64,000 bases of DNA from Methanobrevibacter ruminantium M1 (lineage in GTDB: Archaea > Methanobacteriota > Methanobacteria > Methanobacteriales > Methanobacteriaceae). This document shows positions 7,129-10,276 of this stretch, in pieces. How positions within the stretch are numbered: position 1 is the stretch's first letter; each line of letters begins with the position of its first letter. A program made the translations under genes and the position numbers. The notes under the pieces are model-generated. The model was not told where the DNA came from. It did no database searches and worked only from the letters and a program-made list of their open reading frames with translations. The DNA lies in NCBI RefSeq assembly GCF_000024185.1, contig NC_013790.1:2231001-2295000 (forward strand), read 5' to 3'.

Positions 7129-7244
7129 TTATATTTATAAAATTAATAACTTAGTAGAAAAAACCATAGAAAAATTAATTACTTAATCTATTTACCCAGC
7201 AGAATAGATTTGATTTATAAAAAAACAATTAAAACGTGATTATT

Positions 7245-8300
7245 ATGATGTTACCAACTATACCAACTCCAGATGAGTTATTGGATAAAGGATTTAGAAG
7301 AGGAAAGAAGGCAGCTGATTTAAGAAGAGGAGAAAAGATGCCTAAGCGCCTGAAAGGGAAGCGAATTGAAGAGACCAGAGTTATCACTGCCTGTCAGGTA
7401 ATCAAGGACCGTCTTAAGATGATTCTTGATCGGACTCCTGAAATTGAAGAGCTTCCGGAATTCTATCAGGATTATATAGACATTACAGTTGGGGTTGACG
7501 ACTTTAAGCAAGCTCTCGGTGCAGTCAACTGGGCTTACGGAATCATCACACAGCTTGAAAAGGAATATGGGGCAAAGATTAGGAAAGCTCCTTCTGAACG
7601 TGCCACCGGTCTTCGAAAGCAAGCCTATGGCCGTATATCATCTGTTGTACATAAGATTGAAAAGGACCTTGACTTTTTGGACTTTGCAAAGCAAAGCCTT
7701 AGAAACATGCCTACTGTAGACTTTGATGCAATAAGCATTGTAATTGCAGGATTTCCAAATGTTGGAAAGTCAACATTACTAACCCACATTACAGATGCTG
7801 AGCCTCAAGTTGCAAACTATCCATTTACAACCAAAGGTATTCAGATTGGGCATTTTGAAAAAAGATGGCAGCACTATCAAATCATTGACACTCCCGGTCT
7901 TCTAGACAGGCCTATTGGAGACATGAATGATATTGAGCTTAATGCTATGGTGGCTCTTGAGCATCTGGCTGATGCAATACTCTTTATCTTTGATGCATCT
8001 GAAACATGTGGATATGCCCTTGAGAATCAGTACAATCTTCTGGAGGAAATCAAGAATGTCTTTGATGCCCCTATCATATATTTATTTAATAAGATGGACA
8101 TTTCAGACTATGATGGAGCAAGGCATGACTATGTTCAGGAGTATATTGATAAGACTGAGAATCCATTGCTTATCTCTGCAGCTGAAGGTGAAGGATTGGA
8201 AGAGATCATTCAGTTAATTCAGCAGGTTGAAAAAAGAGAGATAGCTGAAGAAGATGAAGATGAATATGAAGATGATGAAAACTATTTTGATTTGACTTAA
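7245..8300 (+). CDS. NOG1-family GTPase
   Basis: About 351 residues. A helical N-terminal NOG1 region (about 1-160) is followed by an Obg/TrmE-type G domain. G1 is GFPNVGKST near residue 170, G3 is DTPGL, G4 is NKMD, and G5 is about SAAEGEG. An acidic tail ([11 protein letters not shown]) closes the protein. Eukaryotic Nog1 works in large ribosomal subunit assembly; the archaeal protein is assumed to do the same. The frame can be extended to a GTG at 7236, but that GTG is part of the Shine-Dalgarno GTGAT, so ATG 7245 (or the next ATG, 7248) is the likely start. Confidence 0.88.
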
Positions 8301-8368: not shown

Positions 8369-8536
8369 TTTTTTTACACCTAAACACACCAAGCTACTTT
8401 CCTACAAGAATGTGAAATTTTAGCGATTTTTAAAAATTTCAAAATTAATTATTTTTTAACATTCAACAACTAAATCAAAAGAAATAAATATGAAAATAAA
8501 CTATTTTTTATATGAAAAATTAAAGATCTTAAAAAA

Positions 8537-8628
8537 TGTATACAAATTTAAAAAATGTGTACACGAATAGAAAACTTTATATACTAAAAGATCCATAGTT
8601 CAAGTATACATTAGTAACAAAAGTATAC
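8537..8628 (+). promoter_or_regulatory. hsp20 promoter with four GTATAC-type palindromes
   Basis: The TATA box TTTATATA is at 8577-8583 in the context AAAACTTTATATACTAAAAG. Two palindromes lie upstream (TGTATACA 8537-8544, GTGTACAC 8557-8564) and two downstream (GTATAC 8604-8609 and 8623-8628). The downstream sites overlap a copy of ATACTAAAAGAT, which also occurs at the TATA box. Spacing on both sides of the box suggests operators for a repressor that blocks TBP/TFB or RNA polymerase. The regulator is not known. Confidence 0.6.
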
Positions 8629-8649
8629 TAAAAGATTTTTGGATATGAA

Positions 8650-8666
8650 ATTCCCTTTTTGGGAAT
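8650..8666 (+). promoter_or_regulatory. Hairpin in hsp20 5' UTR
   Basis: ATTCCC-TTTTT-GGGAAT forms a perfect 6-bp stem with a 5-nt loop, in the predicted 5' UTR of about 120 nt. It lies 59 nt before the ATG, so it does not directly cover the Shine-Dalgarno (AAGGAG at 8711-8716). Confidence 0.45.
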
Positions 8667-8725
8667 GGAAATGTCTTAAAAAAAATGTTGAATTTTAATA
8701 AAATTATGTAAAGGAGATCGATAAT

Positions 8726-9319
8726 ATGGCTGAAGATATGAGCGAAAATATTGAAACCAAATCTGACTTTAAAGACAAAGCTGAAGAATTCAAAGCAAAA
8801 GCTGAAGCAAGAACTGAAGCTAACAAAGAAAAATGGGATGAAACCTACAACAAAGGTAAAGACGTAGCAGGAAAAGTTGGTGAAAACCTATCAAAAACCA
8901 TTGATGACACCATCATTGCAATGAAAGCTATGCAAAAGAACTTTGATGACAAATACCAATCCTATAAGGAAACCTCTGCAACCAACAAAATCAGCGTTGA
9001 CCTTGCAGAAACTAAAGACTTCTACTACTTACAAGCTTACCTAGCAGGTGTAGCTAAAGAAGACATCTCAATTGAAGCAACTGACAGTTCCATCTCCATC
9101 AACGCAGAACTTAAAAACATTCTCTGCAGCATTGAAGAAGATGAAGAAAACCCAGCAAACCTAATTATCACTGGAGTAAAAACTGGAGTTGCTGAAAGGA
9201 CCATTAAATTAGGAGCTGAAATAGTTAAAGAGGAAATTTCTGCAAAACAAGACAATGGTATATTATTTATAACCATTCCTAAAAAAGAAATTCCTACAAC
9301 TAAAATTGATATAGAATAA
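8726..9319 (+). CDS. Hsp20/alpha-crystallin small heat-shock protein with long charged N-terminus
   Basis: 197 residues, longer than the usual 140-150 for archaeal Hsp20. Residues 1-90 are Lys/Glu/Ala-rich and strongly helical, probably coiled coil. The alpha-crystallin domain follows at about 91-190, with the core 'YYLQAYLAGVAKEDISIEA' and a final beta strand 'NGILFITIPK'. It ends in IPTTKIDI, whose I-x-I-like tail could mediate oligomer contacts. Role: ATP-independent holdase for unfolding proteins in the cytoplasm. Promoter palindromes and a UTR hairpin suggest stress control. The Shine-Dalgarno AAAGGAGATCG supports the start. Confidence 0.87.
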   Translation: MAEDMSENIETKSDFKDKAEEFKAKAEARTEANKEKWDETYNKGKDVAGKVGENLSKTIDDTIIAMKAMQKNFDDKYQSYKETSATNKISVDLAETKDFYYLQAYLAGVAKEDISIEATDSSISINAELKNILCSIEEDEENPANLIITGVKTGVAERTIKLGAEIVKEEISAKQDNGILFITIPKKEIPTTKIDIE

Positions 9320-10072: not shown

Positions 10073-10276
10073 ATGGCAATTCCTAAAGCTCCTGTTAATA
10101 GGATTATTAAAGATGCTGGTGCTGAAAGAGTAAGTGCTGAAGCAGTAGATGCATTAGTAGCATACTTAGAAGAAGACGCAGCTGCTATCTCTAAAAAAGC
10201 AATTGAATATGCAAAAATCGCTAAAAGACAAACTGTAAAAGCTGACGATATTGCATTAGCTATTAAAAACGAATAA
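10073..10276 (+). CDS. Archaeal histone, HMf type
   Basis: 67 residues, a single minimal histone fold with no tail. It starts AIPKAPVNRIIKDAGAERVS and ends KRQTVKADDIALAIK, both classic HMfA/HMfB sequences. It forms dimers that stack into DNA-wrapping hypernucleosomes. A textbook GGAGGTGA lies 6 nt before the ATG, consistent with very high expression. It is a close paralogue of the tailed histone at 44200. Confidence 0.97.
   Translation: MAIPKAPVNRIIKDAGAERVSAEAVDALVAYLEEDAAAISKKAIEYAKIAKRQTVKADDIALAIKNE

Follow-up and report, generated by a model that had tools for sequence, protein, structure and literature searches.

Paired GTATAC sites shared by the hsp20 promoter of Methanobrevibacter ruminantium M1 and an orphan gene that may encode their repressor

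The hsp20 promoter of Methanobrevibacter ruminantium M1 carries two pairs of GTATAC-type sites, and we have little doubt that these pairs are a real operator. The same paired sites stand at the promoter of an orphan open reading frame (ORF) in three genera of the family, while at hsp20 promoters they were found only in genus g1, to which this genome belongs and in which the ORF ends in a tail resembling that of a small heat-shock protein (sHSP). Because the operator accompanies the ORF in all three genera and hsp20 only in the tailed g1, we infer that the ORF encodes an autoregulated repressor. We put it at somewhat better than an even chance that the GTATAC pairs are the operators of this dedicated repressor, which would have been recruited to hsp20 and might be gated through its tail.

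The paired sites at the hsp20 promoter

The hsp20 gene lies on the plus strand at positions 8726 to 9319 of the window, the 64-kb stretch of DNA analyzed here. Its 197-residue product belongs to the Hsp20/alpha-crystallin family, with an alpha-crystallin domain at residues 94 to 191 (Pfam HSP20, E 1.1e-12), a C-terminal IXI-type tail and matches to sHSPs in the PDB that include Hsp16.5. The gene is preceded by a Shine-Dalgarno sequence, AAAGGAG, at 8710 to 8716 on the plus strand, and by a plus-strand TATA box, TTTATATA, at 8576 to 8583, which is at -150 from the start codon. From the usual archaeal spacing downstream of a TATA box, we take transcription to start at about 8606, and we assume that hsp20 is heat-induced in this organism. 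The gene is flanked by a NOG1-type GTPase gene (7236 to 8300) and an archaeal histone gene (10073 to 10276), and the end of the GTPase gene also lies ahead of hsp20 in the related loci L024 to L026.

The two pairs share the form GTATAC-N13-GTRTAC, with 19 bp between site starts, and one lies on each side of the TATA box. The upstream pair, at 8538 to 8562, consists of GTATAC at 8538-8543 and GTGTAC at 8557-8562; the downstream pair, at 8604 to 8628, consists of GTATAC at 8604-8609 and again at 8623-8628, and covers the presumed start site. A preliminary description of this DNA had reported four GTATAC palindromes, two upstream and two downstream of the TATA box. The placement was confirmed, and the hexamer is exact at 8538, 8604 and 8623, but the site at 8557 reads GTGTAC. 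The same description had placed both downstream sites inside a copy of the TATA context. Sequence comparison identifies a 13-bp direct repeat, TATACTAAAAGAT, with plus-strand copies at 8580-8592 and 8624-8636; the statement holds for the site at 8623 and not for that at 8604.

It had further been proposed that the reading would fall if GTATAC were as frequent in arbitrary spacers of the genome. Counted singly, the hexamer is not enriched, with six occurrences in the window against 5.92 expected (100 shuffles) and 312 in the 2.94 Mb of the genome; it is the paired spacing that is enriched. With single sites at the level of chance, the signal lies in the paired arrangement, and the earlier wording needed to be corrected in this respect. 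An exact GTATAC-N13-14-GTATAC occurs once in this genome, as the downstream pair at hsp20, against about 0.07 expected from 312 sites by hand calculation; widening the gap to 4-34 added two further exact pairs, one of them within an ORF. Across the genus there are 25 exact N13-14 pairs, in 13 of 19 genomes, and by coordinates 22 of them lie upstream of hsp20. A backward control, pairs of CATATG, gave 10 in the same 19 genomes and none in this one. The remaining three genus pairs are all in genome G014, near surface-protein-like genes (L058 1958, 6028 and 6061, on G014:C26), where exact GTATAC-N13-GTATAC stands ahead of related genes with signal-peptide-like starts; it is possible that the operator was captured by surface-protein genes in this single genome.

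Relaxing the search of this genome to at most two mismatches, for the N13 spacing, returned 45 forward places against 201 for the backward control, the latter number being larger because CATATG is commoner. Among the 45, the intergenic places that scored at least 16 were two at hsp20, one at the orphan ORF (16.5), one before nrdD (16.2) and, at 73.4 kb, an array of palindromes (16.7). No other chaperone gene was recognizable beside the places inspected among these 45, with neighbors taken as ORFs and one of them tested against Pfam. We rejected the array of TATACTAAA palindromes as a regulon member, as it is made of tandem copies and within 350 bp has no ORF start (minimum ORF length 70 aa). 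It lies outside the window, at about 73400-73630 of G000:C1 (L059 1000-1230), and is an intergenic run of tandem, near-identical TATACTAAACCCTATTTAGTATA-type palindromes with T-rich spacers. The site before nrdD, 291 bp from the start codon, was likewise rejected.

We then compared 13 hsp20 promoters. Eight carry two promoters in tandem, surrounded by three strict pairs, three have two strict pairs and one degenerate pair, and the window and its closest relative (locus L012, whose Hsp20 is 81% identical to the window's) have two pairs. The spacing within these promoters is always 19 or 20 bp, with 17 counts of each. In 11 aligned promoters, with the sites defined on one of the aligned sequences (L018), identity is 98.5% in site columns and 83.7% outside, and 94% against 36% of columns are invariant. 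Between the window and its closest relative, the promoter core is 96% identical within the sites and 74% outside. A lack of conservation in related hsp20 promoters had also been named as grounds for abandoning the operator, and the reading survived this comparison. In L002, L003, L005, L007 and similar loci the hsp20 promoter is duplicated, so that an operator pair follows each of two TATA boxes in tandem. Beyond g1, no pair surrounds the TATA box in any of the 14 hsp20 promoters of genus g5 or in the single one seen from genus g6. In one g5 genome an exact pair stands 277 bp ahead of hsp20, at a distance from the TATA box (G110:C51:6795-6819, L081).

An orphan ORF with the same operator and an sHSP-like tail

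A family-wide search for exact pairs found a match in 28 of 119 genomes and led, in g5, to an uncharacterized ORF with one pair before and one after its TATA box. Its counterpart in this genome is a 172-aa ORF on the minus strand at G000:C1:2070373-2070891, outside the window and about 170 kb from hsp20 on the same contig. The ORF is present in 42 of the 119 family genomes and in 3 of 17 genera (31 genomes of g5, 10 of g1 and one of g6), and is disrupted in a further genome, G015. Of the 16 exact pairs outside g1, 12 lie elsewhere; five of these 12 were inspected, and two are intergenic. One exact pair (L089 1501-1525, genome G026) stands about 60 bp ahead of a short ORF that by eye looks like an HxlR-type regulator.

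The operator is a regular feature of the ORF's own promoter, as it is for an autoregulated transcription factor: a pair matching at no fewer than 10 of 12 positions is found in 39 of 40 cases, and in addition in g6. In g5, each of the 30 promoters examined has GTATAC-N13-G[AC]ATAC ahead of the TATA box and, behind it, a pair that scores 10/12 or more. The g1 promoters have no complete upstream pair; nine of ten have the downstream pair at 10/12 or better, the exception being L099. Their layout is a single pair, the second half of which is weak (GTATAC-N13-GTATTA), and a lone GAATAC before the TATA box. In the one g6 genome, the double layout of g5 precedes a unit of two ORFs, the second of which holds the conserved core. 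A matrix trained solely on orphan-ORF promoters and applied to the 64-kb window ranked the upstream hsp20 pair first (22.3) and the downstream pair second (19.3); the third-ranked place scored 11.2, and 15.1 was the highest score among 20 random windows.

The hsp20 pair and the ORF also tend to occur together within g1. We found hsp20 in 17 of the 19 genomes, 13 with the pair and four without it (G008, G009, G010 and G012). The orphan ORF occurs in 11 of the 13 and in none of the four (Fisher p 0.006, a value that overstates independence because the co-occurrence follows phylogeny). In G003 and G017, which are 72-73% complete, the hsp20 pair is present and the ORF was not found. In G015 (L208, G015:C20), one of the 11, the ORF is disrupted and the hsp20 pair is kept, through either gene loss or an assembly error.

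The family has no significant match in the searches made, which covered eight members against Pfam and NCBIfam, 40 against PHROGs, and profiles of eight and of 40 members against the PDB, and these four collections yielded no known DNA-binding domain. We took a Med9 match (E 0.00015, three of eight members) and one PHROG match (E 0.001, one of 40) as coiled-coil noise; a POU protein in the PDB reached E 0.065 against the profile, which is not significant. A ribbon-helix-helix reading of the core was made by eye only. No relatives of the ORF were found in viral contigs, and mru_1052, a predicted HrcA listed in an earlier publication (PMC7772410), could not be matched to it.

The two proteins end alike, Hsp20 in KIDIE (codons and stop at 9302 to 9319, plus strand) and the orphan ORF in KINIE. 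A genome-wide search for KI[DN]IE followed by TAA or TAG, the two stops covered, found three places, the one beyond these two genes being an 11-codon frame, and hsp20 alone ends in [IV]x[IV]E among the 43 long frames of the window. The longer form I[KT]I[DN]IE closes the ORF in 10 of 10 g1 members, 0 of 30 in g5 and 0 of 1 in g6. MjHSP16.5 has an IXI motif that binds the beta4/beta8 groove of the adjacent subunit, and the truncation G143X is the construct that deletes it (PMC3638399). The matched PDB chain has 147 residues, and there, as here, the tail falls in the last residues of the protein; unlike in MjHSP16.5, the motif here also ends a protein that is not an sHSP. We suggest tentatively, and with more doubt than confidence, that the tail couples the ORF product to Hsp20.

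A proposed circuit and its alternatives

The promoter data lead us to regard the orphan ORF as the probable source of the regulator, with DNA binding predicted from its association with the sites. Its product would engage, as dimers or as a tetramer, a pair of GTATAC boxes that are two helical turns from each other, and by sitting in front of the BRE/TATA elements and over the start site would keep RNA polymerase or TBP/TFB off, thereby repressing both hsp20 and its own gene. Hsp20 might hold the repressor by gripping the KI[DN]IE tail in its alpha-crystallin groove. For the feedback to be negative, free Hsp20 must favor repression. Unoccupied Hsp20 would maintain the repressor in an active or stable state, and repression would be lifted once unfolded client proteins fill Hsp20, which is the predicted response to heat.

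The chief rival, which we consider clearly less likely, is that a third regulator binds the GTATAC pairs and that the orphan ORF encodes a co-regulated adaptor or co-chaperone, a partner of Hsp20 that docks by its IXI-like tail. The ORF shows no recognized DNA-binding fold, an sHSP-like tail fits a structural partner, and promoters are often shared by genes of related function. In g5 and g6, however, the operator sits at the ORF even though the tail is absent and no pair stands at the TATA box of the hsp20 promoters seen, which argues that the operator tracks the ORF and not a partnership with Hsp20. Nor did the 45 relaxed-match places, with neighbors taken as ORFs, include another recognizable regulator gene with a pair placed at its promoter.

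We regard it as improbable that a known archaeal regulator acts at these sites, whether TrpY or a heat-shock repressor of the Phr or HSR1 type. The TrpY box is TGTACA, which occurs within the variant site (8558-8563) and, in L003-type promoters, within the second downstream site, but the other three sites of the window lack it. As given in a review, the HSR1 motif is CTAAC-N5-GTTAG and the Phr motif TTTA/TGGTAA/AAAA (PMC9133787). Both are absent from the window promoter: CTAAC-N5-GTTAG is missing from 8430-8726, and a Phr-type arrangement (TTTA at -10, TGGTAA at the start, AAAA at +10) is not seen, as no TGGTAA lies near 8606. The operon linkage of HSR1 is missing too, with the candidate ORF about 170 kb away and a NOG1-type GTPase gene before hsp20. 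HSR1-like sequence does occur among relatives, as CTAACCAAAAGTTAT in two of four hsp20 loci of genus g16 and, among the 14 g5 loci, as CTAAC-AAAAA-GTAA variants in some, and the window retains AGTAACAAAAGTATACTAA; yet in the survey that included the g16 loci the HSR1-like pattern was found in just 2 of 20, and several of these 20 loci had a badly placed start. The preliminary description had set the cluster apart from Phr and HSR1 sites, a distinction that its genus-wide conservation, fixed spacing and sharing with one other gene uphold.

Less probable still is control by an RNA thermometer or another switch in the hsp20 leader. A hairpin, ATTCCC-TTTTT-GGGAAT, is indeed present on the plus strand at 8650 to 8666, as first described, and it is locally stable (-11.2 kcal/mol, with 1 of 200 shuffles as good). 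Other leader hairpins with 7-bp arms occur in L019 and L022, and the L003 leader (2857-2995), which differs from the window hairpin, folds better than 200 of 200 shuffles (z -4.51). But taken whole the window's leader is unremarkable (z -1.29, with 24 of 200 shuffles doing as well), and a conserved hairpin that sequesters the ribosome-binding site, as in a thermometer, is not what we found. In none of the seven relatives checked, the closest (L012) included, do the 100 nt ahead of the start codon contain the arm ATTCCC, and the hairpin ends 43 nt before the Shine-Dalgarno sequence, leaving it uncovered. These results give no support to the suggestion that this hairpin might respond to temperature, although the leaders of L003, L019 and L022 leave a small probability for some leader function.

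A chance origin of the sites, through AT-rich drift and a duplicated TATA context, is scarcely credible. The 13-bp repeat around the TATA box and the unenriched single hexamers would fit it, but the fixed 19-20 bp spacing and the conservation (which in practice refutes it), the near-exclusive placement at hsp20 within the genus and the independent recurrence at the orphan ORF do not.

Relation to known heat-shock regulators

Literature searches returned nothing on GTATAC operators in archaea or on repressors with an sHSP IXI motif, and, judged by title, nothing on this control region among papers on the Methanobrevibacter Hsp20 promoter. According to a review (PMC9133787), the archaeal heat-shock regulators identified so far were two, Phr and HSR1, and no others. 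If the autoregulated-repressor reading is correct, the orphan-ORF product would be a third, from gut methanogens and from a protein family without recognized relatives, and its change of target could be traced between three genera. The shared tail makes the proposed chaperone feedback specifically and cheaply testable, through contact of Hsp20 with KI[DN]IE, and the hsp20 promoter would offer a small, well-defined, controllable promoter for organisms relevant to enteric methane.

With HSR1, the repressor of the hsp20 operon in Archaeoglobus fulgidus, the proposed system shares negative, autoregulatory control of an archaeal hsp20 and a motif with short inverted halves, and the HSR1 motif itself resembles motifs in some g16 and g5 hsp20 promoters. 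In view of these motifs, HSR1-like control may be the older arrangement, replaced or overlaid in this lineage, a suggestion drawn from few loci. The proposed system differs from HSR1 in that the operator is GTATAC-N13-GTATAC and the candidate regulator is unlinked to hsp20 and of an orphan family. Phr of Pyrococcus furiosus is comparable in having an operator over the start site and in autoregulation (PMC9133787). Unlike for Phr, there is no TGGTAA core here, a second operator pair precedes the TATA box, and the candidate has no detectable relation to known DNA-binding families.

In bacteria, HrcA with GroE and HspR with DnaK are chaperone-feedback repressors. The logic that we propose is theirs, in that chaperone availability would set the activity of the repressor; it differs in the proposed contact, in which the chaperone is a small heat-shock protein and would hold the regulator by an IXI-type tail.
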